From: Actinoplanes sp. KI2
Lineage (GTDB): Bacteria > Actinomycetota > Actinomycetes > Mycobacteriales > Micromonosporaceae
NCBI RefSeq assembly: GCF_025630775.1
Contig: NZ_JAOSZE010000026.1
Location: 62,001 to 126,000, forward strand
Reading direction: 5' to 3'
DNA: 64,000 nt
In this document: positions 4,926 to 55,841 of the stretch, one piece after another
How the letters are laid out: each line of letters opens with the position of its first letter
Numbering within the stretch: the first letter of the stretch is position 1
The notes under the pieces: model-generated
Seen by the model: the letters and a program-made list of their open reading frames with translations, nothing else
What the model was told of the DNA's origin: nothing
The model's database searches: none
Position numbers and translations under genes: made by a program

Positions 4926-5005
4926 GCTGTGTCTCCTGGGCGTGGACTCGTGGCCCTCGGGATCATGCGGGCCTCGGCGGCCCGCTCGCGCTCGGGACAG
5001 CTCGC

Positions 5006-6805
5006 TCACGCCGCGAGCCTGTCCAATCGGCGGCGCGCCTCGGCCAGCTGCGCGACCTTGGCGTGACGCTGGTCGGGCGGCAGCTCGGCGATCTCGCGGA
5101 CCGCGGCCTCGGTCGCCGCGGCGGACCGCTCGACGGCCTGCGCCCGGTTGGCGAACTCGTCCCGCAGGAAGCGCTGGGTGCGGCGGATCGCCTCCCGGCA
5201 GTCGCGTCCGACGTGGAAGCCGACGTCGTCCACGTACCGTCGCAGTTCGGCCTTGGCCTGCATCCGCCGCTGCAGCACCTGCCGCTCCCGCTCGCTCTTG
5301 ATCATCCGGCGGCCGAGCGTCATGCCGGCCAGCAGGCCGATCGGCGCGAGGGCCAGGCTGAAGAACGCACCCACCGCGCCGATCATGTAGATCCCGCCGT
5401 ACGTCACCCGGGCCGCCGTGAAGGCGCCGAGGAACTGCTGCACGCCCGACTTCTGGAAGCTCACGTCCAGCTCGTCCACCTTCCGCAGGGCCAGCTCGGG
5501 AGCGGGCAGGTCGACGTCGAGGCTGTCGTACTCCAGCCCGAACCGCTCGGCCACGTCGTGCGCGAGCTGCTCGGTGCGGGTGACCAGCAGCATCAGGTTG
5601 TCCACCGCCGCCGAGGCCGCCTCCCGCTGCGCCCAGGCCTGGAAGTCGCGCCAGGTCTCCTTCGGGTCGGACTCGTCGATCAGGTCCTCGCCGCGGCGCA
5701 CCATCAGCCGCAGCCGCTCGCGCAGGTCGTGCTCCACATCGGAGCTGAGATCCTGCACGCCGTCGCCGAGCACGGTCTGCCAGGAGCCGCCGGCCAGCCA
5801 GGCGCCGCGCCGGGTCTTCTCGGCGTATCGCCGTACCACCTCGGGCGTCTTCGCCGGGGCCGCGGCGACGGCCTGCTCGGCCTCGACCCGCTCGCGCAGC
5901 TGCGCGACGACGAAGGCGAGCTCGGCCCGCGCCGCCGCGGTCCTGGTCGCCGCCGCCGCGCCCAGCACGTCCCGGCGCAGCACGTCGACCAGCCGCGGGA
6001 AGCCGGACTCCTCGTTGAGCTGGGTGGAGTCGCGGGCCTGGGCGCGCATCCGCAGGAACGAGGAGACCGCGACGATCGGGACGTCCAGGCCGGCCCGTCG
6101 CAGGTGCCCCTCGTTGATGTCGACGATCCGGCGCCACTCGCCGTACAGGTCGGTCTTGGTGATCACGAGGAAGGCGCGCGGGCAGCGTTCCAGGGCGCGG
6201 CGCAGGAAGTCGACCTCGGGGGCGGTGAGCTCCTGGGCGGCGTCGGTGACGAACAGGGCCGCCCCGGCGAGGGAGAGCGCGGCCAGCGTGAGGTTGCCCT
6301 GGGCCGAGTCGAGCCCGCCGACGCCCGGGGTGTCGATGATCGACAGTCCGGCCCCGAGCAGCCGCCGGTCGAGGCGCACCTCGACGCCGCGGGTCACCGG
6401 CGGCACGTCCCCCTCGGCGGCCGGCGCCGAGGCCGTGCTGCCCTCGGTGATGTACCGGCGCAGGTCGTCGAAGGGGATCGGGACCGGCTCGTCGACGCCG
6501 TCCAGCCGCAGGAACGCGGCCGGCGGCCGGCCGAACCGCAGGATGGTCGGAACCGCGGTCACGATGTCCGCGTCCACCGGGCAGATGTCGGTGCGCAGCA
6601 GGGCGTTGACCAGCGTGCTCTTGCCCTGCTTGAACTCGCCGACCACGGCGACGGTCGCCTCCTCGGACCGCAGCCGCTGCGCCGCGGCGTCCAGCCGTCC
6701 GACGAGATCGCCGCGGCCGGCCGCCTGCGCCAGGGCCCGGGCGTCCGCCAGCCCGTCCAGCACATCGCCCTCGGGCCGGGCCGCCTGCGTGGATGTCGAG
6801 GTCAC
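5006..6805 (-). CDS. Dynamin-like GTPase with membrane segment, IniA-like
   Basis: 599 aa from a GTG at 6805 (VTSTSTQAARPEG). GTPase motifs: P-loop GEFKQGKS (~56-63), DTPGVGG (~157) and TKTD (~215). A helical middle is followed by a long hydrophobic stretch at ~467-498 (GGIYMIGAVGAFFSLALAP region), likely the membrane-inserting paddle, then basic amphipathic helices. Size and order match IniA, a bacterial dynamin-like protein that binds and fuses membranes. It precedes the IniC-like gene and likely forms an operon and a heteromeric pair with it. The frame remains open to 6985, but upstream codons are Pro/Gly-rich and non-homologous in character. A GGAGG-like stretch 13-14 nt before the GTG makes this start plausible, not certain. 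Confidence 0.82.
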   Translation of the reverse strand: MTSTSTQAARPEGDVLDGLADARALAQAAGRGDLVGRLDAAAQRLRSEEATVAVVGEFKQGKSTLVNALLRTDICPVDADIVTAVPTILRFGRPPAAFLRLDGVDEPVPIPFDDLRRYITEGSTASAPAAEGDVPPVTRGVEVRLDRRLLGAGLSIIDTPGVGGLDSAQGNLTLAALSLAGAALFVTDAAQELTAPEVDFLRRALERCPRAFLVITKTDLYGEWRRIVDINEGHLRRAGLDVPIVAVSSFLRMRAQARDSTQLNEESGFPRLVDVLRRDVLGAAAATRTAAARAELAFVVAQLRERVEAEQAVAAAPAKTPEVVRRYAEKTRRGAWLAGGSWQTVLGDGVQDLSSDVEHDLRERLRLMVRRGEDLIDESDPKETWRDFQAWAQREAASAAVDNLMLLVTRTEQLAHDVAERFGLEYDSLDVDLPAPELALRKVDELDVSFQKSGVQQFLGAFTAARVTYGGIYMIGAVGAFFSLALAPIGLLAGMTLGRRMIKSERERQVLQRRMQAKAELRRYVDDVGFHVGRDCREAIRRTQRFLRDEFANRAQAVERSAAATEAAVREIAELPPDQRHAKVAQLAEARRRLDRLAA

Positions 6806-7348
6806 CGACCGCCCCGCCCCCTCCTGGTCCTTCGTGGCGCGTACCCGGCCATTCTCCACCCACCGGGCACCCGACCCACCTGGCGCTCCCCGACCGCCGG
6901 ACGTACCAGCCTGAATCCACACCGGATTCGGATCAAGTCCCGATCCGGATGGGTGCTCCGCCGGACAGAAATCCGACACCCACAACCCACCCTCGATGTG
7001 CGACCTTATGACTCTGTCGCTCGATCGCGGCGCATCCGGCAGTCCCGAGGGCTGGGCGCGCGCAGCCGCCCACCACTACGATGCTTGAGCCTCACCGTTG
7101 GGGCCCACCGACCTCCGCACGTACCTCGCGGCACGGCACCCCGCGAGGTGCGTGCGGAGCCCCTCCCCCCTCGCTCCCCCGGATGAAGCGCGCTCGATCT
7201 TGGAGAAAGGGCGCGCGCAGCTCGCACGAACGCTCCACTTTCGCCCGTCGCCGCGCGACCTTGGCGAAAAGCGCGCACAGCTCGCACCAAAGCGCCACCC
7301 GCACCCCGCCGGCCCGCGACGGCGCGGAGCTCGGCGACTCAGGTGGGC

Positions 7349-7460
7349 GCGACGCGCGGGACGGCGCGACGCACGGGACGGCGCGACGCACGGGACGGCG
7401 CGACGCACGGGACGGCGCGACGCAGGGCGAGTGGCGGCGCGACGCAGGGCGAGTGGCGGC
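7349..7460. repeat. Tandem repeats: four 17-mers followed by two 22-mers
   Basis: Four head-to-tail copies of GCGACGCACGGGACGGC (first copy with one change) occupy 7349-7416. Two identical 22-bp units sharing the GCGACGCA start follow (7417-7438, 7439-7460), and a further partial unit begins at 7461. Identity between copies is almost perfect, suggesting recent slippage or expansion. The array ends about 100 bp before aidB. No protein reading is plausible. Confidence 0.9.
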
Positions 7461-7555
7461 GCGACGCCGAGCGGGCCCGCGGACCGGGCGGCGCTGAACG
7501 GGCCGGCGGGATCGGTGCCGGTGGTCGGGGCGTGGCCTCGGAAGCTACCGGCGAG

Positions 7556-7561
7556 TAGATT
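7556..7561 (+). promoter_or_regulatory. -10 hexamer TAGATT for leaderless aidB
   Basis: TAGATT lies 6 nt before the GTG start, implying a leaderless mRNA. No good -35 is visible. Confidence 0.4.
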
Positions 7562-7567
7562 GCGGGT

Positions 7568-9154
7568 GTGACGACCCACGAGGTGTTCAACCAGGCCCCG
7601 CCGCTTGTCGACTACGACGTCTCGGCCGATGCCGCGCTGCTGGCCGGCGTGGCCCGGGAGGGCGCGCCCTGGGCGGTCGGCGATCTGCACCGGCTCGGGA
7701 AGCTGGCCGGGACGGCGGAGCCGCAGCGGTGGGCGGACGAGGCGAACCGGTACGAGCCGCGGCTGATCACCCATGACCGGTACGGGCACCGGGTCGACGA
7801 GGTCGAGTTCCACCCCTCCTGGCATCGGCTCATGGGGGTGGCGGTCGGCGAAGGGCTGGCCGGGGCCGCCTGGGCGGACGACCGCGCCGGGGCTCATGTC
7901 GCGCGGGCTGCCGGCCTGTATGTCTGGTCCCAGGTGGAGGCCGGGCACTCGTGCCCGATCTCGATGACCTACGCCGTCATCCCCGCCCTGCGGAACAATT
8001 CCGACCTTTCCGAAATGTATGAGCCGCTGCTCGCCGGCCGCGAATACGACCCCGGACTGCGGACACCAACGACCAAGCGCGGGCTGCTGGCCGGCATGGG
8101 CATGACCGAGAAGCAGGGCGGCTCGGACGTCCGGGCCAACACCACCCGGGCGACCCGGTCCGCCGACGGGACCTGGCGGCTCACCGGTCACAAGTGGTTC
8201 ACCAGCGCGCCGATGTGCGATCTGTTCCTGGTGCTGGCCCAGACGGCCGCGGGTCTGTCGTGTTTCCTGGTGCCGAGGGTGCTGCCGAGCGGCGAGAAGA
8301 ACGTGTTCCGCATCCAGCGCCTCAAGGACAAGCTGGGCAACCGCAGCAACGCGTCCAGCGAGCCGGAGTTCGAGGACACCGTCGCCTGGCTGGTCGGCGA
8401 GGAGGGGCGCGGCGTCCGCACCATCATCGAGATGGTCGCGATGACCCGCCTCGACTGCGTGACCGGCTCCGCCTCCGGCATGCGCGCCGCCCTCAACCAG
8501 GCGATGCACCACGCCCGGCACCGCTCCGCCTTCGGCCGGCTGCTGGCCGATCAGCCCGCCATGCGCAACGTCCTCGCCGACCTGGCGATCGAGTCCGAGG
8601 CGGCGACCGTCCTGGCCATGCGCCTGGCCGGCGCCGTCGACCGGGGCGAGCACGCGTTCCGCCGGCTGGCGATCGCGGTCGGCAAGTTCTGGGTGTGCAA
8701 GCGGCAGCCGGCCGTGGTCGGCGAGGCCCTCGAGTGCCTGGGCGGCAACGGCTACGTCGAGGACTCCGGCCTGCCCCGGCTCTACCGGGACGCCCCGCTC
8801 AACTCGATCTGGGAGGGCTCCGGCAACGTCCAGGCCCTCGACGTGCTGCGCACGCTGCACCGCGAGCCGGATAGCCTGGAGGCGCTGCTGGCCGAGGTGT
8901 CGGGCGTCGACCGGCGGATCGACGAGGCGGTCGCCGGCCTGCGCACGATGGCCATGGACGAGGGACAGGCCCGCCGGGTCACCGAGCGGATGGCGGTCGT
9001 CCTGCAGGCGTCGCTGCTCGTGCGGCACTCCCCGGCCGAGGTCGCCGACGCGTTCTGCGCGACCCGGCTGGCCGGCGACTGGGGCCACACCTTCGGCACC
9101 CTGCCCGCCGCCGTCGACACCGCGGCGATCATCGAGCGGGCGGCGCCGCAGTAG
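7568..9154 (+). CDS. aidB: Acyl-CoA dehydrogenase family protein, AidB type
   Basis: 528 aa, start GTG 7568 (MTTHEVFNQAPPL). The N-terminal HEVFNQxPPL motif and later LAGMGMTEKQGGSDVR, GHKWFTSAPMCD, CLGGNGYVE and LYRDAPLNSIWEGSGNV are hallmarks of the AidB branch of the FAD acyl-CoA dehydrogenase fold. In E. coli, AidB is part of the adaptive response to alkylating agents, binds DNA and has weak isovaleryl-CoA dehydrogenase activity. Its physiological reaction is unsettled, so the role here is inferred from family. Length is close to E. coli AidB (~541 aa). It appears monocistronic, with a leaderless-type promoter. The convergent AAA ATPase gene ends 9 bp away. Confidence 0.88.
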   Translation: MTTHEVFNQAPPLVDYDVSADAALLAGVAREGAPWAVGDLHRLGKLAGTAEPQRWADEANRYEPRLITHDRYGHRVDEVEFHPSWHRLMGVAVGEGLAGAAWADDRAGAHVARAAGLYVWSQVEAGHSCPISMTYAVIPALRNNSDLSEMYEPLLAGREYDPGLRTPTTKRGLLAGMGMTEKQGGSDVRANTTRATRSADGTWRLTGHKWFTSAPMCDLFLVLAQTAAGLSCFLVPRVLPSGEKNVFRIQRLKDKLGNRSNASSEPEFEDTVAWLVGEEGRGVRTIIEMVAMTRLDCVTGSASGMRAALNQAMHHARHRSAFGRLLADQPAMRNVLADLAIESEAATVLAMRLAGAVDRGEHAFRRLAIAVGKFWVCKRQPAVVGEALECLGGNGYVEDSGLPRLYRDAPLNSIWEGSGNVQALDVLRTLHREPDSLEALLAEVSGVDRRIDEAVAGLRTMAMDEGQARRVTERMAVVLQASLLVRHSPAEVADAFCATRLAGDWGHTFGTLPAAVDTAAIIERAAPQ

Positions 9155-42020: not shown

Positions 42021-42956
42021 CTATTTGACCTTGGCGTGCCGGTCCACGGACAACCAGTCGTCATAACGCTCCCCGGTGACCTCCTGCAAGATCGCGATGT
42101 CCGCGGCGAACAGCGGCAGCAGGGCGGCCCGCTCGGCCGGCGTGGTCACCGGCCGGGCACCGGTCTTGCGGTGCAGCACGGTCAGCAGCGGCCCGCGCGC
42201 GGCCAGCCGCAGCGGCACCGGGAAGCGATGACCGAAGGTGCCGCCGGTGCGCAGCAGCCAGCGCAGCGCCGCGTTGACGGCGGTGTCCTCCACCACGTGC
42301 CGGTTCACGTTCTCCTTCGGGATCTCGGTGAGCACCCCGGTCTCCGCGCCGAGGAACGCGCAGACCCGGTCGAGGGTCGCGGCCGGGTCGTCCTTGAGCT
42401 CCCGGTAGCGCAGCAGCAGCACCTGCTCGCGCGGGACATGCCGGTACAGGTGCTCGATCTGCCGCCCGTAGAGCCCGAGCCCGGTGTAGTGCCAGAACGC
42501 CGCCCAGCCGGCCGCGATCCGGGCCGGCTCAGCCCGGCAGGCGGCCAGGAAGTCGGCCTCCGGCTCGAGGCCCGCGTTCCACAGGTGGGTCCAGTTGGAA
42601 TGCGCGCGGTCGACCGGGTCGCGCAGCAGCAGGATCAGCCGGGCCTGCGGGACGAGCGCCTTGATCCGCGCGTGCGCGCCGAGGTCGTGCAGGTAGAACG
42701 GGGTGGCCTCGCCGAGCAGGGCGCCCGCGGGGGCGGCGGCGAACAGCGCCTCGTAGTCCTCCCGGCGCCAGACGTGCTCCTGATAGGTCTGCACGTCGCC
42801 GGGGCCGCCGTGGCGCGGCGGCGGGCCGTCGGTGAGGAAGAACTTGGGCTCCTTCACCGGCGACAGATACAGCCCCGGATGCGGCGCCAGCGCCGCGTGC
42901 AGCGCGGTCGTCCCCGCCTTGGGCACGCCCGCGATCAGGAAATCGGGAAGTGGCAT
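42021..42956 (-). CDS. Sulfotransferase family protein
   Basis: 311 aa from ATG 42956 with AGGAGG seven bases upstream. PAPS 5'-phosphosulfate loop [18 protein letters not shown] (~10-27), then 3'-phosphate motif [20 protein letters not shown] with Arg and Ser. EPKFFLTDG and FLGAE near the C-terminus match the Sulfotransfer_1/3 fold (heparan-sulfate/glycan-type). It transfers sulfate from PAPS to a hydroxyl or amine, likely on a cell-surface glycan or glycolipid given the neighbouring glycosyltransferases. No membrane anchor is seen. Confidence 0.88.
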
Positions 42957-43051
42957 GGGGGTCCCTCCTGTCGTACGCCCGCACGCTCGAAGTGGCACCT
43001 AGCCTACAGACTTAGTAGGTTTTCGCGACCCCACGCCACTTACTGGGACGG

Positions 43052-43234: not shown

Positions 43235-43655
43235 CTATCGACCTCGGCGGACACGGGCGCGGCCATTCCCGGCCGACCCTAACGGTACTGCAGCTCGATC
43301 GTGACGCTTCGTAATGTCGCCGTGCGGCGGGGCGCCATCGTTAGGTTTTTCCGACATTTTTTTATTGTACGGATTAGAGGCTGTGTATCTGGTTTGCCCC
43401 GATGGCCCGGTATACGCCAGATACGGTCGTCGAACCCGCGATTGGCCGTTACCCAGGGTCATCGCCGTGACATCCGTTCACCAGAGAGTCCGTCGAGGTC
43501 AACGCCTTGAGCGCCACGCTCGCCATCTAGTGATCACGGTCGCGTTTGACTCTGCGTAATGTCGGGTTACGGTGATCGGCACAGCGAACGACGTGCGGAT
43601 CAACCCCCTGATCCCACCCATACGGTCGGTTCGCGGCCCGGGAAGGGATCCGGAC
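43235..43655. other. 421-bp AT-richer intergenic region with hairpin and promoter
   Basis: Markedly lower GC than the surroundings, with T-runs around 43347-43370. It contains perfect 8-bp arms GTATCTGG (43385-43392) and CCAGATAC (43417-43424) around a 24-nt loop, a direct repeat CGTAATGTCG (43310-43319 and 43555-43564), and a promoter-like TTGACT (43546-43551)-16-TACGGT (43568-43573) pointing at the GT2 gene. No ORF of quality is seen. It probably carries divergent promoters and regulator sites. Confidence 0.55.
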
Positions 43656-44591
43656 ATGGAGCTCTCGCACGCCACCGGCGACACCCTCGGTGACGCTCCG
43701 ACGTCACCGAGCGTGAGTGTGGTCATCCCGGCGCTCAACGAGGAGCGCAACCTCCCGCACGTCTTCGCCGCCCTGCCCGCGGACATCGCCGAGGTGATCC
43801 TGGTCGACGGCGGCTCGGTCGACCGCACCGTCGCCGTCGCCCGCGAGCTGCGTCCCGACGTGGTCGTGGTGCAGCAGACCCGCAGGGGCAAGGGCAACGC
43901 CCTGGCCTGTGGCTTCGCGGCCAGCACCGGCGACATCATCGTGATGATCGACGCGGACGGCTCGACCGACCCGCGCGAGATCCCGCTCTTCGTCAAGCGA
44001 CTGCTCGACGGCGCCGACTTCGTGAAGGGCTCGCGCTTCACCCACGGCGGGCACAGCCACGACATCACCCGGCTGCGCCGGCTCGGCAACGACGGGCTCA
44101 ACCTGGTGGTGAACGTGCTTTTCGGCACCGACTTCACCGACCTCTGCTACGGCTACAACGCCTTCTGGCGCAGCGTCGTGCCCACCCTCGGCCTGCCCGA
44201 CACCCGGCTCCCGCAGCCGGCCGGCGGCGGCAAGCTCTGGGGCGACGGCTTCGAGATCGAGACGATGATCAACATCCGGGCCGTGGTCGCCGGCCTCGAG
44301 GTCGGCGAGGTCGGCAGCATCGAGCACGAGCGCATCCACGGCGGGAGCAACCTCAACACCTTCCGGGACGGCTTCCGGGTGCTGCGCACGATCCTCAGCG
44401 AGTACGGCCGGGCCCGTCGCCGCCGCACCACGACCGCCCCCGTGCACCGCCAGGTGACCACCGAGTCCCGCGGCGACGCTCCCCGTCCCTCGCTGAGCAC
44501 CATGCCGCTGGACAAGGCGCTGCCGATGAACACCCGCCGCGCCACCGCCGGCAACCGCAAGCCGGTCCGCATCTCCTCCATCGAGAACTGA
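43656..44591 (+). CDS. GT2 family glycosyltransferase, dolichol-phosphate-mannose-synthase-like
   Basis: 311 aa from ATG 43656 (GAAGGG upstream). GT-A core: VSVVIPALNEERNLPHVFAAL, EVILVDGGSVDRT, GKGNALACGFAASTGDIIVMIDADGSTDPREI (DAD metal motif), GSRF and GYNAFWR, DGFEIETMINIRA. No C-terminal TM helices; the last ~50 residues are basic and low-complexity. It transfers a sugar from a nucleotide donor to a lipid or glycan acceptor. It starts a two-gene unit with a second GT2, 8 bp downstream, next to the sulfotransferase. The upstream frame (to 43572) is considered leader sequence. Confidence 0.87.
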   Translation: MELSHATGDTLGDAPTSPSVSVVIPALNEERNLPHVFAALPADIAEVILVDGGSVDRTVAVARELRPDVVVVQQTRRGKGNALACGFAASTGDIIVMIDADGSTDPREIPLFVKRLLDGADFVKGSRFTHGGHSHDITRLRRLGNDGLNLVVNVLFGTDFTDLCYGYNAFWRSVVPTLGLPDTRLPQPAGGGKLWGDGFEIETMINIRAVVAGLEVGEVGSIEHERIHGGSNLNTFRDGFRVLRTILSEYGRARRRRTTTAPVHRQVTTESRGDAPRPSLSTMPLDKALPMNTRRATAGNRKPVRISSIEN

Positions 44592-44599
44592 GCCACGCC

Positions 44600-45364
44600 G
44601 TGGACGTCAGCGTCGTCATCCCGGCCGGGCCGCCCAGCCAATGGCGCTCGCTGGTGCGGGCCGTCGCGTCGGTCCGGGCGCAGACCTACCGGCCGGCCGC
44701 GGTGCTGGTCGTGGTTGACCAGGACCTCGCCTACTTCCGCCGGGTCCGCCGCGACCTGGCGGGGGTCACGGTCCTGGAGAACGACCGGGGGCCGGGCGGC
44801 AGCCGGGACACCGGCGCCTACCACGCCGGCACCGAGCTGATCGCCTTCCTCGGCCACGACGTGATCGCCGACCCGGGCTGGCTGGCCGGGCTGATCCGCG
44901 CCCTGCAGGACCCGGCCGTGGTCGGCGCCGGCGCCGGTCTGCGCCCGGACTGGCGCAACGGCCGGCCACGCTGGCTCGCCGACGAGCTGACCTGGACCGT
45001 CGTGCCACCCGCCCGGCCGGCCGGGATGGTGGTACGGCGCAGCGTCTTTCGCGAGGTCGGCGGCTTCGGGCGGCGGGCCGCCGAGCTGCCGCTGCGGATG
45101 CGCACGCTGTCCGGCGGCCGCTGGCGGCACGTGCCGGACGCGGTGCTGCGGCACGAGGTGCCCGGTTCGGCCGCCTCGTTCCCGGCGTACCTGCGGCGCT
45201 GCTTCGCCGAGGGCCGGTCCGCGCTGCGCCCGATGCCGGAGGCGGTGCTGGGCAACCTGCGCGCGGCCTTGCGCGGGCGCGGGGTCGACCACGCGCTGCG
45301 CGCCGGCGGCGCCCTGGCCGGGATGGCCGCGGCCGGCGCCGGCCTGATGACGGCCCGCCGATGA
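44600..45364 (+). CDS. GT2 family glycosyltransferase, compact
   Basis: 254 aa, GTG 44600. SVVIPAGPPSQWRSLVRAVASVRAQTYRPAAVLVV is the GT-A start; GGSRDTGAYHAGTELIAFLGHDV occupies the DxD region, which here reads G-H-D rather than D-x-D. R-R-S-V-F-R-E-V-G-G-F is the conserved acceptor-loop signature. It is shorter than many GT2 proteins and lacks TM helices, although the Ala/Gly-rich C-terminus could be membrane-associated. It is probably co-transcribed with the preceding GT2 and acts on the same glycan. Confidence 0.78.
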   Translation: MDVSVVIPAGPPSQWRSLVRAVASVRAQTYRPAAVLVVVDQDLAYFRRVRRDLAGVTVLENDRGPGGSRDTGAYHAGTELIAFLGHDVIADPGWLAGLIRALQDPAVVGAGAGLRPDWRNGRPRWLADELTWTVVPPARPAGMVVRRSVFREVGGFGRRAAELPLRMRTLSGGRWRHVPDAVLRHEVPGSAASFPAYLRRCFAEGRSALRPMPEAVLGNLRAALRGRGVDHALRAGGALAGMAAAGAGLMTARR

Positions 45365-47142: not shown

Positions 47143-48324
47143 GTGTCTGTCGGTGAAGAAGTAGAGACCCGCCCGCGCCGGCGCCGCTCCCGCGCCGTCC
47201 GGTTCGCGCTGATCGTCTCGGCGATCCTGCTGCTGCTCTTCGGCGTCCCGTGGTGGACGCTGCTCGCCTCCGGCAACGACTGGCCCACCCCGGTCCTGGT
47301 CACCGGCACGATCGTGGCCGCCGGCGCGCTGCTGCTCTTCCCGTTCCTGATGTTCAGCGGCCACGGCGGCAGGCACCGCGACGGCCCGGCGAAGATCGCC
47401 GACACCACCCTCGGCATCGTCTGGGTCCTGTTCGTCTGGTCGCTGATCGGGCAGGTGCTCACCGCGGTCCTGTGGGCGGCCGGCGTGGCCGGCCCGGCTC
47501 GCTACCGCATCGCCACCGTGGTGGTCACGGTCGTCGCGGTGGTCCTGCTCCTCTGGGGGTACGCCGAGGCCATGCGGGTGCCACGCGTCCGCCGCGTCGA
47601 GGTGACCCTCGATCGGCTCGGCCGGGGCCTCGACGGCCTGCGCCTGGTCCTGATCACCGACACCCACTACGGCCCGATCGACCGGGTGCGGTGGTCCCAG
47701 GGGGTGACCGCGGCGATCAACAAGCTGGACCCGGACGTGGTCGCGCACACCGGTGACATCGCCGACGGCGAGGTCGCCCAGCGGCGCGAGCAGGCGGCGC
47801 CGCTGGGCGACGTGCGGGCGTCGCTGGCGCGGGTCTACGTGACCGGCAACCACGAATACTTCAGCGGCGCCCAGCGCTGGGTGGAGCACATGGCCTCGCT
47901 CGGCTGGGAGGCCCTGCACAACCGGCACCTGGTCGTGTCCCGCGGCGGGGACTCGCTGGTCATCGCCGGGGTGGACGACCGGACGGCGGCCGGCTCCGGC
48001 GTGCCCGGCCACCACGCCGACCACGAGGCGGCGCTGGAAGGTGCCGACCCCGCGCTGCCGATCCTGCTGCTGGCGCACCAGCCCGTGCAGATCGCCGGTG
48101 CCGTCGCGCACGGGGTCGACCTGCAGATCTCGGGGCACACGCACGGCGGCCAGATCTGGCCGTTCCACTACCTGGTGCGCCTCGACCAGCCGGCGCTGCA
48201 GGGCCTGTCCCGGCATTCGCCGCGCACCCAGCTCTACACGAGCCGGGGCACGGGGTTCTGGGGGCCGCCGTTCCGGGTGTTCGCGCCGAGCGAGATCACC
48301 CTGCTGACCCTGCGCGCCGCCTGA
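47143..48324 (+). CDS. Membrane metallophosphoesterase
   Basis: 393 aa, GTG 47143. Four N-terminal TM helices (~20-145) are followed by a calcineurin-like phosphoesterase: VLITDTHYGPID (D-x-H), VAHTGDIADGE (GD), YVTGNHEYFSG (GNHE), LLLAHQP and ISGHTHGGQIWP (GHTH). All dimetal motifs are intact. Same layout as YkuE-like/UDP-2,3-diacylglucosamine-type membrane phosphoesterases of actinomycetes, acting on a phospho-substrate at the membrane surface. It converges on the Hsp70 gene, with stops 10 bp apart. Confidence 0.9.
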   Translation: MSVGEEVETRPRRRRSRAVRFALIVSAILLLLFGVPWWTLLASGNDWPTPVLVTGTIVAAGALLLFPFLMFSGHGGRHRDGPAKIADTTLGIVWVLFVWSLIGQVLTAVLWAAGVAGPARYRIATVVVTVVAVVLLLWGYAEAMRVPRVRRVEVTLDRLGRGLDGLRLVLITDTHYGPIDRVRWSQGVTAAINKLDPDVVAHTGDIADGEVAQRREQAAPLGDVRASLARVYVTGNHEYFSGAQRWVEHMASLGWEALHNRHLVVSRGGDSLVIAGVDDRTAAGSGVPGHHADHEAALEGADPALPILLLAHQPVQIAGAVAHGVDLQISGHTHGGQIWPFHYLVRLDQPALQGLSRHSPRTQLYTSRGTGFWGPPFRVFAPSEITLLTLRAA

Positions 48325-48334
48325 CCCGCGTTCC

Positions 48335-50539
48335 TCAGCAGGTCACCGTGATCTGGTCGAAGCGGGCGTGGAACGGGGCGGGCCTCGCCCCGGCCTGGGC
48401 CCGGTTGAGGGCGGCCACGCCGACCTGCACGGTTTCCGGCAGGGTCATCGTCACGGTGGCCAGCTCGGCGAAGTCCGGCTTGTCGGCCGGACGCCAGGCA
48501 CCGGTGACGGTATCGCCCGACCGGGTCATCCGCAGCACTAGCCGGGTCGCTTCGGTCCGGACCGGGTGCTGGGTCGGCAACGGCCCGTGCACCCACCTGT
48601 GCGGGCCGCCGTCCCGGTACTCGAAGCCCACCGTGCCGTTGCCGCCGAAACCGCGCTCGATCCGGACGTACCGATCCGAGCCGTTCCACAGCAGCAGGCC
48701 GGCGCCCTGGTAGAAGACGGCCGGGTCGGCCTCCACCGTGGCCTCCAGGACGAAGTCGCCGGTCACCGGGCGCAGCAGCATCGGCGCCGTCATGTTGGTC
48801 CGGTAGATGTCCGTGCCGTTCGGGGCGTCCAGGTCGGCCGCGCCGCCGCTCACCGTGAGCTTCAGGTCCGGCCGGCTGAGCTGCCAGGCGGGGTCCACCG
48901 TGGTGCCGGCGAAGTCATCGGAGAAGCCGCAGGCCGGGGCGCTGGCGGCGGCCGACGGCTGGAGGGCGGCGGCCTGGCGGTTGTCGTGGTGCAGCAGCCA
49001 CAGGATGAGCGGGACGCTGACGGCGATCACGAGAACGGCGACGACCGCGATCAGGATCCGGACGCGGTTGCGGCCGGCGGCCCGTCCGGAAGCCCTCGGT
49101 GGCGGCGCGATGTCCGGCGGACCGCCTGGGCCGATCATGCCGAGCGGGAGAAGCTGGACGGGGGTCTGCTCGTCCGCCGACGCCTGGCCCACCGCGAACG
49201 GCCGATTCGGCCCGGGCGGCTGCGTCGGCGGCACCCCGGGCTGCGGCGCCCCGGGCTGCGGCGCCCCGGGCTGCGGCGACGACACGGGCTGCGGCGACGA
49301 CACGGGCTGCGGCGGCGACGCGCGCGAGGCCGGGGAGGGGGCGGGCGCGGTCACCGGGGCGGCCGCGGCGGCGGGTGACCTGGGTGCCGGGGCGACGGCC
49401 GGCACGCGCTCGGGAGCTGGGGCGGGTGCCGGGCCGGGCGCGGGTGCCGGGCCGGGCGCGGGTGCCCGCGCCGGGGCCGGGGCCGGGATGACGCCGGTCA
49501 GGCGGGCCGCGCCGAGCGCCATGCTGTGCTCCGGGTTGGGGTCGACGACGACCGGCCGCCCGAACGCCTCGCCGACCAGCGCCCCGATCAGCGGAATCCG
49601 CGACGACCCGCCGGCCAGCAGCACCACCCGCAGCCCGTCCGGCTCGACCTGTGCCGAGCGCAGCGCGCGACCCAGCGCGCGCGTCGTCTCGTCCAGCGCC
49701 GGCGCGATCATCGTCTCGAACTCGCGCCGGGTCAGCCGCACCCGGGTGTGCAGGCCGGGCAGCGCCACCGGGATCATCACCTCGGTGTCGAAGGACAGTG
49801 CCTCCTTCGCGTCCACGCAGTCGCGCCGCAGCCGGGTGAGTGCCGCCACCAGCTCGGGGTCGTCCCCGGCCAGCCGCTCGGCTGGCAGCACCCGGGTCAC
49901 GTGGTCGAAGACCGCCTCGTCGAAGTCGGCCCCGCCCAGCTGCTCGATCCCCTCCGGCGTGCCGAGCAGCTCGAACCCGCCGGCGGTGCGGCGCAGCACG
50001 GCCGCGTCGAAGGTGCCGCCGCCCAGGTCGTAGACGGCCACCACGTCGCCGTCGGCCATGTGCTCGCCGGCCGCGTACGAGACCGCCGCCGCCTCGGGCT
50101 CGCTGCGCAGGACCACCTGCGGCACGTCGGCCATCCGCGCCGCCTGGGCCAGCAGGTCCCGTTTGTACGGACCCCAGTTCGCCGGGCAGGTGAGCACCAC
50201 CGAGTCGGGCGGCCCCTGCTCCGCGGCCGTGGCGACGGTCAGCACGTGCTCCAGCTGGCGGGCGAGCAGCGCGTGCGCCGGATAGGGCGAGCCGCCGACC
50301 AGCAGCGGCACCGGATCGCCGACCCGCCGCTTGAACTCGCGGGCCAGCCGAGCCGGCTGCGCCTCGCCGCGACGCACGGCCGGCTCGCCGACCAGCACCG
50401 GCCCGCTCTCCGGCAGGAAGATCACCGAGGGGATCTCGGGCCGCCGGCCGCCGAGCCGCAGCACCTCCACGGCCTGCCCGCGGCGCACCGCCGCGGCGGT
50501 CCAGGTGGTACCGAGGTCCACGCCCAGCCCGTACGTCAT
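48335..50539 (-). CDS. Transmembrane Hsp70-family ATPase with concanavalin-A-like exodomain
   Basis: 734 aa from ATG 50539 (GGTGAGG upstream). Hsp70 ATPase ~1-350 with GVDLGTTWTAAAV, YDLGGGTFDAAVL and VLLAGGSSRIPLIG; strongly similar to the 958-3510 protein (PANWGPYK, LRSEPEAAA, EALSFDTE shared). No substrate-binding domain. A Pro/Ala-rich linker (~355-490; APAPGPAPAPGPAPAP, SSPQPV repeats) leads to one TM helix (~495-517) and then a ~200-residue exodomain (~534-734; CGFSDDFAGTTVDPAW, FYQGAGLLLWNGSDRYVRIERG, RFDQITVTC). The exodomain has the look of a DUF1349/ConA-like jelly roll, a carbohydrate-binding fold. Inference: a membrane receptor that couples glycan recognition to a cytosolic Hsp70 ATPase. 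Confidence 0.85.
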   Translation of the reverse strand: MTYGLGVDLGTTWTAAAVRRGQAVEVLRLGGRRPEIPSVIFLPESGPVLVGEPAVRRGEAQPARLAREFKRRVGDPVPLLVGGSPYPAHALLARQLEHVLTVATAAEQGPPDSVVLTCPANWGPYKRDLLAQAARMADVPQVVLRSEPEAAAVSYAAGEHMADGDVVAVYDLGGGTFDAAVLRRTAGGFELLGTPEGIEQLGGADFDEAVFDHVTRVLPAERLAGDDPELVAALTRLRRDCVDAKEALSFDTEVMIPVALPGLHTRVRLTRREFETMIAPALDETTRALGRALRSAQVEPDGLRVVLLAGGSSRIPLIGALVGEAFGRPVVVDPNPEHSMALGAARLTGVIPAPAPARAPAPGPAPAPGPAPAPAPERVPAVAPAPRSPAAAAAPVTAPAPSPASRASPPQPVSSPQPVSSPQPGAPQPGAPQPGVPPTQPPGPNRPFAVGQASADEQTPVQLLPLGMIGPGGPPDIAPPPRASGRAAGRNRVRILIAVVAVLVIAVSVPLILWLLHHDNRQAAALQPSAAASAPACGFSDDFAGTTVDPAWQLSRPDLKLTVSGGAADLDAPNGTDIYRTNMTAPMLLRPVTGDFVLEATVEADPAVFYQGAGLLLWNGSDRYVRIERGFGGNGTVGFEYRDGGPHRWVHGPLPTQHPVRTEATRLVLRMTRSGDTVTGAWRPADKPDFAELATVTMTLPETVQVGVAALNRAQAGARPAPFHARFDQITVTC

Positions 50540-51328: not shown

Positions 51329-52258
51329 TCAGGGGCGAAACGGTTCGGTTCCGGCCGCAGCGATCTCCTCGGCGGCGGCGAGCATCTGCGCGGCGACCGG
51401 CTGGAGGCCGGCCACCGTCAGCGTCAGTCCGGTGGCCACCCGGTCGAGCAGACCCCATTCCCAGATCGCCCGCGGGTCGGTGCCGGTCCGGTCGGCCAGC
51501 CATCGGCACCGGTCCCGGAGATCACCCTCGGCCGGGTCCTCGCGCAGCAGGACACCGAGATCGCACTCCGGCTCGGCGACGTACCCGTCCGGGTCGACCA
51601 GCTTGAACCCGGCCCCGGCGCGCATCGCGTTCCACTGGTGGATGTCGCCGTGCACCAGGACGGCCCGGCCCGGGGCGTGTGCGCGCCGCCGGCTCTCCCC
51701 CGCCGCGAGCGCCTGGTCGACCGCCGCGCGGCAGCACGGCTCGCCTAGTTCCGCCCACTTCCGGTGGACATAGCGGGACATGCGGGCCGCCCGTACGGCA
51801 CCGGTCGGGAGATCCACATCGGTCGGGCGCCAGACCGCGGCGGCCAGGTCACACAGAATCGGCAGCCGCCGCGACATCGGGAGACCCAGGTCGGACAGGG
51901 CCGGGCCGAGCCGCTCCAAAAGCAGAGCACCAAGGCTTTCCTCGTACGCGAGGAGCCGGGCACACGCGTCGCCGCCCGCCTCGCGCAGGAACGTGATCTC
52001 GCCGGCGGCCGTGCTGCCGGGGCGCGGGACGAGCAGCTTGAGCACGGCCGGCGTGCCGTCGTTCCGGGTGACTTCCACGACGTACGCCTCGGTCGGGTCC
52101 TGGAACGGCGCACCCAGGCGCAAGTCCCACGCCGCGGCCAGGGTCGCGATCAGCTCGGGGAGGTTCTCCAGCCACGCCGTCGCGCCCAGGTCCACGGCCT
52201 TGGCCCGCACGGCCGCCGGAAGATCTCGCACGACGGCCGATGGTGGCACACGTGACAT
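51329..52258 (-). CDS. Aminoglycoside phosphotransferase family protein, streptomycin 6-kinase-like
   Basis: 309 aa, ATG 52258 (MSRVPPSAVVRDLPAAVRA). Kinase-like fold of the APH(6) group: VEVTRNDGTPAVLKLLVPR (ATP-binding Lys), LLLERLGPALSDLG, VLVHGDIHQWNAMRAGAG (catalytic HGDxHxxN) and FKLVDPDGYVAEPECDLGVLLREDP (metal Asp and following acidic loop). Such enzymes phosphorylate streptomycin-like substrates or, in many genomes, an unknown endogenous compound. Divergent from the ABC exporter with 85 bp between starts, suggesting joint control. Confidence 0.83.
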   Translation of the reverse strand: MSRVPPSAVVRDLPAAVRAKAVDLGATAWLENLPELIATLAAAWDLRLGAPFQDPTEAYVVEVTRNDGTPAVLKLLVPRPGSTAAGEITFLREAGGDACARLLAYEESLGALLLERLGPALSDLGLPMSRRLPILCDLAAAVWRPTDVDLPTGAVRAARMSRYVHRKWAELGEPCCRAAVDQALAAGESRRRAHAPGRAVLVHGDIHQWNAMRAGAGFKLVDPDGYVAEPECDLGVLLREDPAEGDLRDRCRWLADRTGTDPRAIWEWGLLDRVATGLTLTVAGLQPVAAQMLAAAEEIAAAGTEPFRP

Positions 52259-52343
52259 CCGGCGGCGACGTAATTGCGTTGAAGACCTTCCGGCTCGTCC
52301 GGAGGATGGAGAGACCGCCAACCGCCGACCGACGAGGTGTCTC

Positions 52344-55300
52344 ATGCGTCTGCTTCGTGACCTCTGGGCCACGTCACCCAGCCGCACGGCCATGGCGGCC
52401 TTCCTCATCGTGCTCGGCGCGGCCGGGCAGGCGGGCGCGCTCGCGCTGGCCGGCGCCGTGCTGGTCAACCGGTCGGTCCCGCAGTTCGTGCTGCTCGCCG
52501 CCGCGCTGGTCGCCTCGGTGGTCAGCGACCTCGCGGTCGGGCTGATCGCGGCCGGGCTGACCGCCGACTGGGCGGCCCGGGTGCGCCGCGGGCTCAACCG
52601 GGTGGCCTTCGGGCAGGACCTGCCGACCCTGGAGAACACCCCGGTCGGCGAGCTGCTCGACCGCATCGACTCCGACGTCTACCAGGTGGGCTCCGAGATG
52701 CGCGGCGCCGGCGTGCGGATCGCGCAGTCGGTGGCGGTGGCGACGCTGTCCATCGTGACCGCGTTCTTCGCCTGGTGGCCGGCCGGGGTCGGCATGGTGT
52801 TCGTGTCGATCCTGCTCTACCTCACGATGAGCAGGCCGATCCGGCGCCTCTCGCCGCTGCGGATCGCCGAGGAGGAGTCCTGGTCCGACCTGGCCGCGGT
52901 GATGGAGGAGTCGATCCACGGGCAGGACGACGTACGCACCAGCCTGGCCGCGCCGTACGTGCTCCGCTTGTACGCCCAGCGCGCCGCCGAGGTGCTGCGC
53001 CGCGGCCGGCTGGTCTGGCGGTCGTCGTCCCGGATCACCATGGGGGCCGGCGCGATCACCCGGTCGCTGATCGCGATCCTGGTCGTGGTCGGCGCGTGGG
53101 CGCTGCTCACCGGCCACATCGACGGCGCCCGGCTGACCGCGGTGTGGCTGCTCGCGCTCGGCTTCGGCGGCACCCTCGAGCACGTCACCCGGATGGTCCC
53201 CGAGCTGCAGAACGCGCTCGGCGCCTGGAGCCGGGTGCAGCTGCTGCGCGACGTGCCGCAGGAGCCGGCCGGCGGGCTCGATCCGGTCGACGGCGACCTC
53301 ACCGTGCAAGACCTGACCTTCCGGTACGCCGAGTCCGACAGCGGGCGCCCGCCGGCCCTGCGCGACGTCAGCCTCACCTTCGCGCGCGGCCGCTCGTACG
53401 CGCTGATCGGCCGGACCGGCTCGGGCAAGAGCACCCTGGCCAAGGTGCTGACCCGGGCGGTCGACGTGCCCCGGGGGACGGTGTTCCTCGGCGGGACCGA
53501 CCTCAACGACCTGGACGTGGAGGCGCTGCGCCGGTGGACGGCGATCGTCCCGCAGCGCACCGAGATCCTGGCCGGCACCCTCGCGGAGAACATCGCGCTG
53601 TTCGACCCGGAACTGCTGCCGCTCGCGGCCGGCGCGCTGGCCGAGCTGGGCCTGACCCCGTGGGCGTCGAGCCTGCCCGAGGGCATCGACACCAAGCTCG
53701 GCGAGGGTGGCTACAAGCTGTCCGCCGGGCAGGAGCAGCTGGTCGCGTTCGCCCGGATCCTGGTACGCAACCCGCACGTGGTGATCCTCGACGAGGCCAC
53801 CGCCCGGATGGACCCGGTCACCGAGACCTGGGTGCAGCGGGCCACCGACCGCCTGCTCGCGGGGCGGATCGGCGTGATCGTGGCGCACCGGCTCTCCTCG
53901 GTGCAGCGCTGCGACGAGGTCGTCGTGCTGGCCGACGGCGAGGTCCTGGAGTCCGGGCCGCTGCGCGAGTCGCGCCGCTTCGCCGAGCTGATGGCCTCCA
54001 GCGCGCTGACCGTGCCGGCCGCCGGCCCGGCCGGCGGCGGGGTGCTGGTCGAGGAGCGCGACTGGGCCGAGTCTTGGGAAACCGGTGCGGCACAGCTGGA
54101 GCTCGGCGCCGACGCGCTGGCCAACACGCTGCCCGCGGTCGAGCCGCCGCCGCTGCCCGACGAGCCGCCGACCCGCACCATGCGGGAGATCGTCCGGCTG
54201 GCGACCAACGACCCGCGCTACGGCCTGGCCGCGGTCGCTCTGTTCCTCGTGCTGATCGTGCTCGGGCTGGACGGCGCGGTCCTGCCGCTGCTCTGGGCGG
54301 ACGTGGTCGACGGGGTGGGCAACCCGCTGCACCCCGCGATCGTCATCGCGGCCGCCCTGCTCGTGGCGATTCCGACGCTCTACTACACCGGGGCCTGGTT
54401 CCCCGAGTGGTGGGTGCGGCAGATGCTGCGGATCAGCCTGCGCCTGGTGCACGGCCAGATCGGCCCGCGCCGGGTCAGCAAGCACACCCCGGCCGAGGTG
54501 GTCGCCCAGGGCGGCGACACCGAGCGGGTGGTGATGCTCGCCGACAACCTGATCGACAACGCCGCCAGCCTGGTCCTCATCACGGTGATGACGATCGCGG
54601 CCCGGTCCCCCGTGCCCGCCCTGTTCTTCCTGGGCACGATGGTGGTCTCCGGGCTGGCCGCGACGATGTTCGGCCCCCGGCTGGAGAAGGCGGCCCGCCG
54701 TACCGTGCTGGCCCGGGCGGCGTTCGCCACCGCGCTGGTGTCGTCGCTGTCCGCGGCCCGCACGGTCAAGCTGGCCGGCGCCACCGAGCCGGTCCTCGAC
54801 CACCTGGCCGGGCTCGACGTGGTGCGCAGCGACCGGCAGCGCCGGGAGATCGCGATCCAGGTGTGGGCGCGCTCCACGCCGTCGATCGCGAGCGGGCTGC
54901 TGCCGATCGCCGCCTGGGCGCTCTACCTGGACGGCCGGCTCACCTCGGCGGCGACACTGATCGCGGTGTCGGTGCTCGGCGCGGCCCGGTGGTTCGCGTG
55001 GACCACCGCGTCGCTGGTCTCGCAGCTGCCCTCGGCCCGGGTGTGGACCAGGCGGACGGTCGCCATGTCGGGCATCTCCGAATACACCGCGGACGTGCCC
55101 GGCGTGGACATCTCGGCCGGCACCGCGCCGGCACCGCCGACCGCGCCGCGCAACCCGCTCGACCGGCTCGAGCTGCGCCGGTTCAGCGCCGTGCACGAGA
55201 ACGGCACGGTCGGCGCGCAGGACGTCGACCTCGCGGTCGACCGCGGCCAGCTGGTGCTGGTCGTCGGGCCGGTCGGGTCGGGCAAGTCGTCGCTGCTGCG

Positions 55301-55841
55301 GGCCCTCGCCGGGATCGTGCACCACACCGGCGAGCTGCGGTGGAACGGGCAGGTGGTGGACGAGCCGGAGATGTTCCTGCGACCCAACCAGGTCGGCTAC
55401 GTCGCCCAGCTCCCGCGGGTGCTCTCCGGCACGGTGGCCGACAACATCCAGCTCGGGCACGAGCTGGACGCGGCCGACGCGGTGTCCACGGCCCAGCTGG
55501 AGCACGACCTGAAGGCGTCCGGCGGCGGCCTGCAGCTGCTGATCGGGCACAAGGGCACCCGGCTCTCCGGCGGGCAGCTGCAGCGGCTGGCGCTGGCCCG
55601 GGCCCTCGCGCCCCGCACCGAGCTGCTGATCGCCGACGACGTGTCCTCGGCGCTGGACGTCACGACGGAGCTGGAGCTCTGGCGGGCGCTCCGCGAGCAC
55701 GGGGTGACCGTCGTCGGGTCGACGTCCAAGCGGGCGGCGCTGACCCAGGCCGACCGGGTGGTCGTGCTGATCGGCGGCAAGGTCGAGGACCAGGGGTCGT
55801 GGGCGGAGCTGCAGAACCGCTGGGACCACCTGGCGGGCTGA
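52344..55841 (+). CDS. ABC exporter with two fused TMD-NBD halves, second NBD degenerate
   Basis: 1165 aa, ATG 52344 (GAGG eight bases upstream). TMD1 ~15-300; NBD1 ~310-560 with GRTGSGKST, LSAGQEQLVAFARIL, VVILDEAT and VIVAHRLSS. TMD2 ~620-890; NBD2 ~920-1160 with GPVGSGKSS, LSGGQLQRLALARAL, LLIADDVSSALD and a GSTSKRAAL H-loop. NBD1 keeps the catalytic Glu and His. NBD2 has Asp in the Glu position and Ser in place of the H-loop His, so one ATP site is degenerate, as in the heterodimeric exporter TM287/288. A full-length single-chain exporter of this type is likely a lipid, drug or peptide transporter. Confidence 0.9.
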   Translation: MRLLRDLWATSPSRTAMAAFLIVLGAAGQAGALALAGAVLVNRSVPQFVLLAAALVASVVSDLAVGLIAAGLTADWAARVRRGLNRVAFGQDLPTLENTPVGELLDRIDSDVYQVGSEMRGAGVRIAQSVAVATLSIVTAFFAWWPAGVGMVFVSILLYLTMSRPIRRLSPLRIAEEESWSDLAAVMEESIHGQDDVRTSLAAPYVLRLYAQRAAEVLRRGRLVWRSSSRITMGAGAITRSLIAILVVVGAWALLTGHIDGARLTAVWLLALGFGGTLEHVTRMVPELQNALGAWSRVQLLRDVPQEPAGGLDPVDGDLTVQDLTFRYAESDSGRPPALRDVSLTFARGRSYALIGRTGSGKSTLAKVLTRAVDVPRGTVFLGGTDLNDLDVEALRRWTAIVPQRTEILAGTLAENIALFDPELLPLAAGALAELGLTPWASSLPEGIDTKLGEGGYKLSAGQEQLVAFARILVRNPHVVILDEATARMDPVTETWVQRATDRLLAGRIGVIVAHRLSSVQRCDEVVVLADGEVLESGPLRESRRFAELMASSALTVPAAGPAGGGVLVEERDWAESWETGAAQLELGADALANTLPAVEPPPLPDEPPTRTMREIVRLATNDPRYGLAAVALFLVLIVLGLDGAVLPLLWADVVDGVGNPLHPAIVIAAALLVAIPTLYYTGAWFPEWWVRQMLRISLRLVHGQIGPRRVSKHTPAEVVAQGGDTERVVMLADNLIDNAASLVLITVMTIAARSPVPALFFLGTMVVSGLAATMFGPRLEKAARRTVLARAAFATALVSSLSAARTVKLAGATEPVLDHLAGLDVVRSDRQRREIAIQVWARSTPSIASGLLPIAAWALYLDGRLTSAATLIAVSVLGAARWFAWTTASLVSQLPSARVWTRRTVAMSGISEYTADVPGVDISAGTAPAPPTAPRNPLDRLELRRFSAVHENGTVGAQDVDLAVDRGQLVLVVGPVGSGKSSLLRALAGIVHHTGELRWNGQVVDEPEMFLRPNQVGYVAQLPRVLSGTVADNIQLGHELDAADAVSTAQLEHDLKASGGGLQLLIGHKGTRLSGGQLQRLALARALAPRTELLIADDVSSALDVTTELELWRALREHGVTVVGSTSKRAALTQADRVVVLIGGKVEDQGSWAELQNRWDHLAG

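Follow-up and report, generated by a model that had tools for sequence, protein, structure and literature searches.

The gene and the plan of its product

The stretch analysed here (the window) covers 64,000 nucleotides of Actinoplanes sp. KI2, positions 62,001 to 126,000 of contig NZ_JAOSZE010000026.1. The gene under study, at 48335-50539 on the minus strand, codes for a protein of 734 residues in which a nucleotide-binding domain (NBD) of the Hsp70/DnaK type, hereafter the head, is followed by a linker, a predicted transmembrane (TM) helix and an exodomain of predicted concanavalin A-like (ConA-like) jelly-roll fold (Table 1). The gene starts at the ATG at 50539 and the N-terminus of the protein is MTYGLGVDLGTT; the GC content at third codon positions is 0.94 when the open reading frame (ORF) is taken in its longest open form. 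A sequence-only reading had placed there a second transmembrane Hsp70. This was borne out: the ORF is exact, Pfam finds in its product both HSP70 (E 2.4e-48, best stretch 84-351) and DUF1349, and a single hydrophobic segment follows the head. The same reading had attributed a common NBD and linker-TM plan to a first Hsp70 of the window (958-3510), and rightly so, as the two heads are 63% identical and the plans alike. The nearest named matches are from Nonomuraea, Prescottella and Rhodococcus, and relatives already carry the annotation 'Hsp70 family protein' in public records. The record of the source genome gives 7% contamination; this worry is mostly removed because orthologues exist in five further genomes, where they retain head, helix and exodomain.

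Table 1. Features of the gene at 48335-50539 and of other genes of the window considered in the text
Feature	Coordinates	Strand	Basis
Whole gene, 734 aa: Hsp70 head, linker, predicted TM helix, predicted ConA-like exodomain	48335-50539	-	Translation; Pfam
Hsp70/DnaK-type nucleotide-binding domain, residues 1-351	49487-50539	-	Pfam; PDB sequence match; ATP-site columns
Pro/Ala-rich linker, residues 352-494	49058-49486	-	Translation; composition
Predicted transmembrane helix core, residues 495-513, Arg-rich segment before	49001-49057	-	Hydropathy; charge
Predicted ConA-like jelly-roll exodomain (PF07081 DUF1349/GH43 C-terminal type), residues 537-734, Cys537 and Cys734 at ends	48338-48931	-	Pfam; alignment; model
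Paralogue ('first Hsp70'), like head and plan, WD40-like (PD40) propeller exodomain	958-3510	+	Head comparison; Pfam
Dynamin-like GTPase near paralogue (PF00350, E 7.8e-22), about 41 kb from the gene under study	5006-6985	-	Pfam profile search
Frame with second dynamin-like GTPase (PF00350, E 1.1e-9, frame residues 701-807); coordinates are those of the whole frame	3492-6920	-	Pfam profile search
Sulfotransferase	42021-42998	-	Pfam
Glycosyltransferase family 2	43572-44591	+	Pfam
Glycosyltransferase family 2	44600-45364	+	Pfam
Metallophosphatase	47143-48324		Pfam
ABC transporter	51780-55841		Pfam

Among proteins of solved structure, the head is closest in sequence to the DnaK chain 2v7y (E 7e-39), which we take to be the DnaK of Geobacillus kaustophilus. 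In the 69 family heads that were compared (see below), the ATP-site columns are largely kept (D8 in 69, T11, T12 and K70 in 67 each, E147 in 68, D171 in 66, T176 in 64, K245 and S249 in all 69), which argues that ATP binding and hydrolysis are probably kept as well, these columns presumably having the roles that they play in DnaK. The column aligned with DnaK Arg167, presumably the J-domain contact, is Val in 54 heads and Arg in none, which suggests that the usual control by J-proteins has probably been lost. The substrate-binding domain and the lid are absent: the Pfam HSP70 match ends at residue 351 of 734, the remainder being linker, helix and jelly roll. Because it has no substrate-binding domain, the protein is not a canonical Hsp70 chaperone; compared with DnaK/Hsp70 chaperones, with which it has in common the nucleotide-binding domain and most ATP-site residues, it lacks substrate-binding domain, lid and J-contact Arg but gains a membrane helix and an outer domain. 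No protein kinase domain was found in it by the Pfam scan. The head was also matched by the Pfam MreB profile (E 3.7e-9). Such a match is expected from the actin fold shared by Hsp70 and MreB; it was put down to that fold.

The linker, which occupies the place of the substrate-binding domain, is 33% proline and 21% alanine (131 residues counted). The one hydrophobic segment found after the head, within the helix region PPRASGRAAGRNRVR, has residues 495-513 as its best 19-mer. For each of the 63 one-helix family members, net positive charge was compared between the 15 residues on the N-terminal side of the hydrophobic core and the 15 on its C-terminal side: the N-terminal side is the more positive in 59, the two are equal in four, and the N-terminal side is lower in none. 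An earlier count, made with wider helix limits, had given more Lys/Arg on the N side in only 40 of the 63. In all six orthologues, the exodomain contains two cysteines and no more, one at each end, a pattern that would fit an extracellular disulphide. With helices called by hydropathy only and sidedness deduced from charge only, the protein is predicted to be a single-pass, N-in/C-out membrane protein, and both the charge pattern and the paired cysteines agree with the extracellular exodomain assumed by the sequence-only reading.

The exodomain was matched by Pfam DUF1349 over residues 565-733, at 41.7 bits for a cut-off of 32.4; the other five orthologues scored 33.8, 32.0, 28.0, 27.2 and 23.0 bits. 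A single-sequence AlphaFold2 model is all-beta, with 14 strands, a mean predicted local distance difference test (pLDDT) of 62.7 and a predicted template-modelling score of 0.67. Foldseek related this model to GH43 (glycoside hydrolase family 43) beta-xylosidases and to legume lectins of the PDB with a probability of 1.00. With VIA-align, Z ranged from 16.4 to 12.0 among the 50 matches listed: 16.4 for 6ms3 (GH43; 174 aligned, root-mean-square deviation 3.0), 16.2 for 3o12 and 3mep, and 12.5 for the carbohydrate-binding module (CBM) CBM66. The yeast protein 3o12 is titled functionally unknown and the title of 3mep gives no function; we take both to be DUF1349 members. By sequence, the single exodomain had no match in the PDB up to E 1, and the best match of the exodomain profile, at E 0.022, was to GH43. 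Structure prediction and comparison with ConA-like folds had been set beforehand as the point on which a DUF1349/ConA outer domain could fail; the predicted fold turned out to match the GH43 C-terminal domain and other ConA-like proteins, and a jelly roll is thus supported by the model. In sequence and predicted fold, the exodomain resembles the ConA-like DUF1349 (PF07081) and GH43 C-terminal (PF17851) domains; it differs from the usual ones in being carried by an Hsp70 membrane protein, on the side predicted to face outwards, and in its two end cysteines.

What the exodomain may bind was approached through its relatives. Weaker than the orthologues, 17 were matched in the genomes of the family, and nine of these were scanned with Pfam: four contain a GH43 domain, one combines CBM6, PKD, GH43_C2 and DUF1349, one has CBM4_9, one is a glucose dehydrogenase with PKD and two have DUF1349 alone. 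Six of these nine non-Hsp70 proteins are therefore of the GH43, CBM6 or CBM4/9 kind, and this association, the main support for the idea, makes carbohydrate binding by the exodomain plausible. The sole relative found in wider genome contigs (L009, Phycisphaerales) was dropped, most of the match (6305-6556) being antisense to a longer minus-strand ORF (6395-7663). Among viral contigs there were 82 pattern matches, none related to the exodomain.

Relatives of the head and their dynamin-like neighbours

The head search gave 58 matches in 32 of the 40 genomes of the genus. In the taxonomic family it was positive at E 1e-60 in 11 of 42 genomes (10 of 41 genera, one genome per genus with one extra). 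Across the phylum, 5 of 149 genomes gave a match, the own genome being one of them; a single helix was also seen at each of the five phylum loci from other genomes. The 69 proteins examined are the 58 genus matches, ten from the taxonomic-family search and one protein of the own genome (L011) that missed the limit. Exactly one helix follows the head in 63 of them and none in six, three of which are cut by contig ends (L178, L212 and L220) and three not (L221, L228 and L229). Five one-helix proteins end in short tails only. Clustering was applied to the 58 exodomains of more than 90 residues and gave 21 four-Cys, 19 PD40 (WD40-like) propellers, six DUF1349, five PQQ propellers, four YncE-like propellers and the singletons L192 (Kelch), L194 (no Pfam family) and L227 (discoidin), these Pfam names resting on ten scanned exodomains.

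Some of these sister exodomains deserve mention. The commonest, four-Cys kind (L015, L196-L209, L215 and L222-L226), has its four cysteines in 20 of 21 members and a recurring HLHIYGGDG-like motif (seen by eye); L015, the one member scanned, had no Pfam family, and inspection by eye suggested similar domains in two proteins from other families of the phylum, L235 and L237. In L227 (G075, another genus), the discoidin (F5/8C) domain comes with a sub-threshold match to a ricin-type lectin, which makes it a second carbohydrate-binding-like exodomain under an Hsp70 head.

When a profile of the six DUF1349-type exodomains was run at E 1e-25 on the 40 genomes of the genus, it found six places, all of them Hsp70 fusions (G000, which is the own genome, G004, G005, G009, G013 and G023). 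All five genomes with a PQQ-propeller Hsp70 (G000, G004, G009, G013 and G023) also have the DUF1349 one, itself present in only six of 40; this co-occurrence may reflect shared ancestry or function.

A tree built from 66 heads, without the three truncated ones, was labelled with ten states, i.e. the exodomain kinds, short tail and no helix. It required 10 changes of label, for a possible minimum of 9 and a mean of 38.7 after shuffling, and the DUF1349 heads formed one clade (support 98/97). Swaps of exodomain must thus have been rare, each new pairing with a head being passed on afterwards, which suggests that the two are matched to each other. In G005 (L294, C28:78000-97500), a Kelch and a DUF1349 gene, both Hsp70-headed, lie in tandem, and the flank of this locus matches that of the PD40-propeller gene in G000, G013 and G023. 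The DUF1349 head is about 47 kb from the propeller head in G000, 67 kb in G013 and 18 kb in G023. These arrangements make it reasonable to suppose that a local duplication gave rise to the DUF1349 member.

In the window, the first Hsp70 (958-3510, plus strand) adjoins a convergent pair of dynamin-like GTPases (3492-6985, minus strand). Per-genome counts gave 282 Dynamin_N matches in the 40 genomes of the genus, the best 150 of which were used for distances to heads. On that basis, Dynamin_N lies within 12 kb of at least 27 of the 58 genus heads, for a rough random-placement estimate of about 1% (about 2% counting all 282). By kind, this concerns at least 16 of 19 PD40-propeller, at least 10 of 16 four-Cys and at least one of two truncated heads, as against none of the five PQQ, four YncE, four short-tailed, one Kelch and one other heads. 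For the PQQ heads, the complete list of 50 matches in the six DUF1349-carrying genomes confirmed that none of the five has a dynamin within 12 kb.

Five annotated plasmid loci were also compared (Rhodococcus sp. BH4, Prescottella equi WH99, pVAPN1571, Gordonia pCP113 and R. rhodochrous LH-B3); the plasmid heads are only 34-37% identical to that of the 48335-50539 protein. On the first three plasmids, a dynamin gene and a second GTPase gene directly precede the Hsp70 gene in a row on one strand; BH4 differs by a small intervening gene and by having another Hsp70 as well. In Gordonia pCP113, Hsp70 comes after a short gene annotated as dynamin and two hypothetical genes, and LH-B3 has GrpE followed by Hsp70. 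A sixth locus, from Nonomuraea, carries no annotation. The helix, checked in four of these Hsp70s, is present in BH4, WH99 and pVAPN1571 and absent from LH-B3. Of the plasmid loci L315, L316, L318 and L319 (Rhodococcus, Prescottella and Gordonia), L315 has, within a few kb, a toxin gene of the PemK/MazF type and L319 a transposase gene of the IS256 type. The dynamin-GTPase-Hsp70 sets of plasmids may be mobile.

Genes around the DUF1349-type Hsp70

The sequence-only reading had pointed to glycosyltransferases and a sulfotransferase 4-8 kb away: the genes are real, the distance is rather about 3 to 5.5 kb. Both glycosyltransferases are on the strand opposite the Hsp70 gene; the sulfotransferase is on the same strand, with four plus-strand genes intervening. 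Among the five other orthologous loci, G013 alone has neighbours in common with the window, namely the metallophosphatase, the ABC transporter, the glycosyltransferase at 44600-45364, at the counterpart of which the compared G013 stretch ends, and others. The loci of G004, G005, G009 and G023 share with the window only the Hsp70 over about 9 kb on each side (7 to 10 kb for G005, where the comparison was anchored on the Kelch twin, gene calling having missed the DUF1349 gene), with one exception, G004 having ABC-type proteins that match at 25-27%. No gene family recurs in three or more of the six loci, and neither GrpE nor DnaJ was found among the neighbouring ORFs of the window scanned with Pfam. 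Since the neighbourhood is mostly unshared and the glycosyltransferases are on the opposite strand, the neighbours say little about the ligand.

A possible envelope sensor and its alternatives

The protein is perhaps best seen as an orphan, single-pass, receptor-like protein with an Hsp70 nucleotide-binding domain as its cytosolic head, that is, an envelope sensor with an Hsp70 switch and not a chaperone; we give this view somewhat less than an even chance. Its anatomy and conservation can be read directly in the sequences and the exodomain fold comes from prediction, while the side of the membrane, the class of ligand, the coupling and the partner are inferred. The exodomain would bind, outside the cell, a carbohydrate of the wall, the capsule or the environment; this binding, or clustering, would alter the ATP/ADP state or the oligomerisation of the head, and a cytosolic partner would read that state. 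The likeliest class of partner would be the paired dynamin-like, membrane-remodelling GTPases, as suggested by the sister genes and not by 48335-50539 itself. A bolder and unlikely generalization is that of a class of actinobacterial transmembrane receptors in which a ligand bound outside would set the ATP state of the Hsp70 head, and the head would then load or unload a dynamin-like pair to remodel or repair the membrane; evolution would have equipped such heads with varied exodomains (lectin-fold, several propellers, Kelch, discoidin and Cys-rich), the DUF1349 one being the glycan-reading branch.

This plan has a known counterpart. Actinobacterial receptor Ser/Thr kinases of the PknB/PknD type have a cytosolic enzymatic head, a linker, a single helix and varied exodomains. 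The likeness lies in that succession of parts; the differences are the Hsp70 head and the fact that no exodomain was found in common with the kinases of the own genome.

Several points weigh against the sensor view. Kinases with a helix and a C-terminal part are present in the same genome, and comparison of the 58 Hsp70 exodomains with 744 ORFs from the kinase loci (L240-L288; 46 kinase matches in the same genome) revealed no common exodomain at E 0.01, the kinase gene being possibly cut short in some of these loci. The occurrence of the gene is patchy (6 of the 40 genomes of the genus). In the head, two ATP-site columns depart from DnaK: E267 of DnaK corresponds to a column with Val in 64 of 69 cases, and R151 to one with Arg in just 42. 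As to the exodomain, two of the six orthologues reach the DUF1349 cut-off in hmmscan and four in the genome search; the model was made from one sequence, with the modest mean pLDDT given above and residues 7-46 poor; Foldseek TM-scores are modest as well (0.40 to 0.56 by query length, among the 50 matches listed); and a ConA-like fold is by itself no proof of sugar binding. Lastly, in the complete 50-match list, none of the six DUF1349 heads has a dynamin within 12 kb: the nearest pair is at about 12.5 kb in G005, 21 kb in G023, 43 kb in G000 and 63 kb in G013, and in G004 and G009 it is not on the same contig (only 18 kb long in G009). The proposed dynamin partner is therefore borrowed from the paralogues.

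Other explanations were considered. The protein could be a wall anchor or scaffold, the jelly roll binding a wall polymer and the actin-fold head polymerising or binding the cytoskeleton, so as to tether membrane to wall without signalling. The MreB match of the head, the dynamin-like neighbours of sister genes, which point to membrane work, and the long Pro/Ala-rich linker, a conceivable spacer, fit this scheme. We nevertheless find it improbable, since that match is what the shared fold predicts, the ATP site has mostly Hsp70 residues, and the scanned sister exodomains are propellers, Kelch, discoidin or of no Pfam family, not classical wall-binding modules.

A receptor for something other than a carbohydrate, whose jelly roll would bind a protein or peptide or sense tension, has about the same low likelihood. 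Propellers are often protein binders and most of the Pfam-named sister exodomains are propellers; moreover, 3o12 and 3mep, two of the close structural matches, have titles that name no function. The carbohydrate-active context of six of the nine scanned relatives and the Z of 12.5 to CBM66 argue the other way.

More doubtful is a membrane-tethered chaperone aid, in which the head would recruit proteins or serve secreted ones, the exodomain being a mere tag or anchor. The missing substrate-binding domain, the lack of Arg in all 69 heads at what we take to be the J-domain contact column, the absence of GrpE and DnaJ from the neighbouring ORFs scanned and the inheritance of exodomain kinds with the head all tell against it. 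In its favour, the head is a true Hsp70 domain, a Rhodococcus plasmid carries a GrpE-Hsp70 pair without helix, and Hsp70 heads without peptide-binding domain stand elsewhere beside GrpE and a full Hsp70 (PMC7159879).

The sequence-only reading had raised the possibility that the protein senses a surface polysaccharide which the cell itself produces with the nearby glycosyltransferases and sulfotransferase; with these genes 3 to 5.5 kb off and one glycosyltransferase kept in G013, the closest relative, but no common neighbours in the other four loci and both glycosyltransferases on the opposite strand, this idea is hardly tenable.

Among the nearest published parallels are the GTPase-centred conflict systems of actinobacteria and firmicutes, which include an HSP70 without peptide-binding domain beside a full HSP70 and GrpE (PMC7159879). 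A head-only Hsp70 genetically tied to GTPases is common to them and to the present family; the full HSP70 and GrpE belong to those systems, and a transmembrane version with an exodomain is not mentioned in the excerpt of that paper. The excerpt of a paper on the dynamin-like pairs IniA and DynA/DynB has Hsp70 only in the title of a reference (PMC6104087); in the family, paired Dynamin_N GTPases adjoin sister Hsp70-headed genes, not 48335-50539. Excerpts of two others mention DnaK duplicates together with an NBD-only conserved domain (PMC11019930) or merely name HSP70 domains (PMC8195603). In the portions of the open-licence PubMed Central literature searched, no description of transmembrane Hsp70-headed proteins with exodomains was found.

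Hsp70 is commonly treated as a folding machine. A family in which an Hsp70 head serves as the inside half of a one-helix membrane protein, lacking the peptide-binding domain and joined to varied outer domains, would put the commonest chaperone motor to a new use, and the link of sister members with dynamin-like pairs would give a testable handle on where and when bacterial dynamins act.

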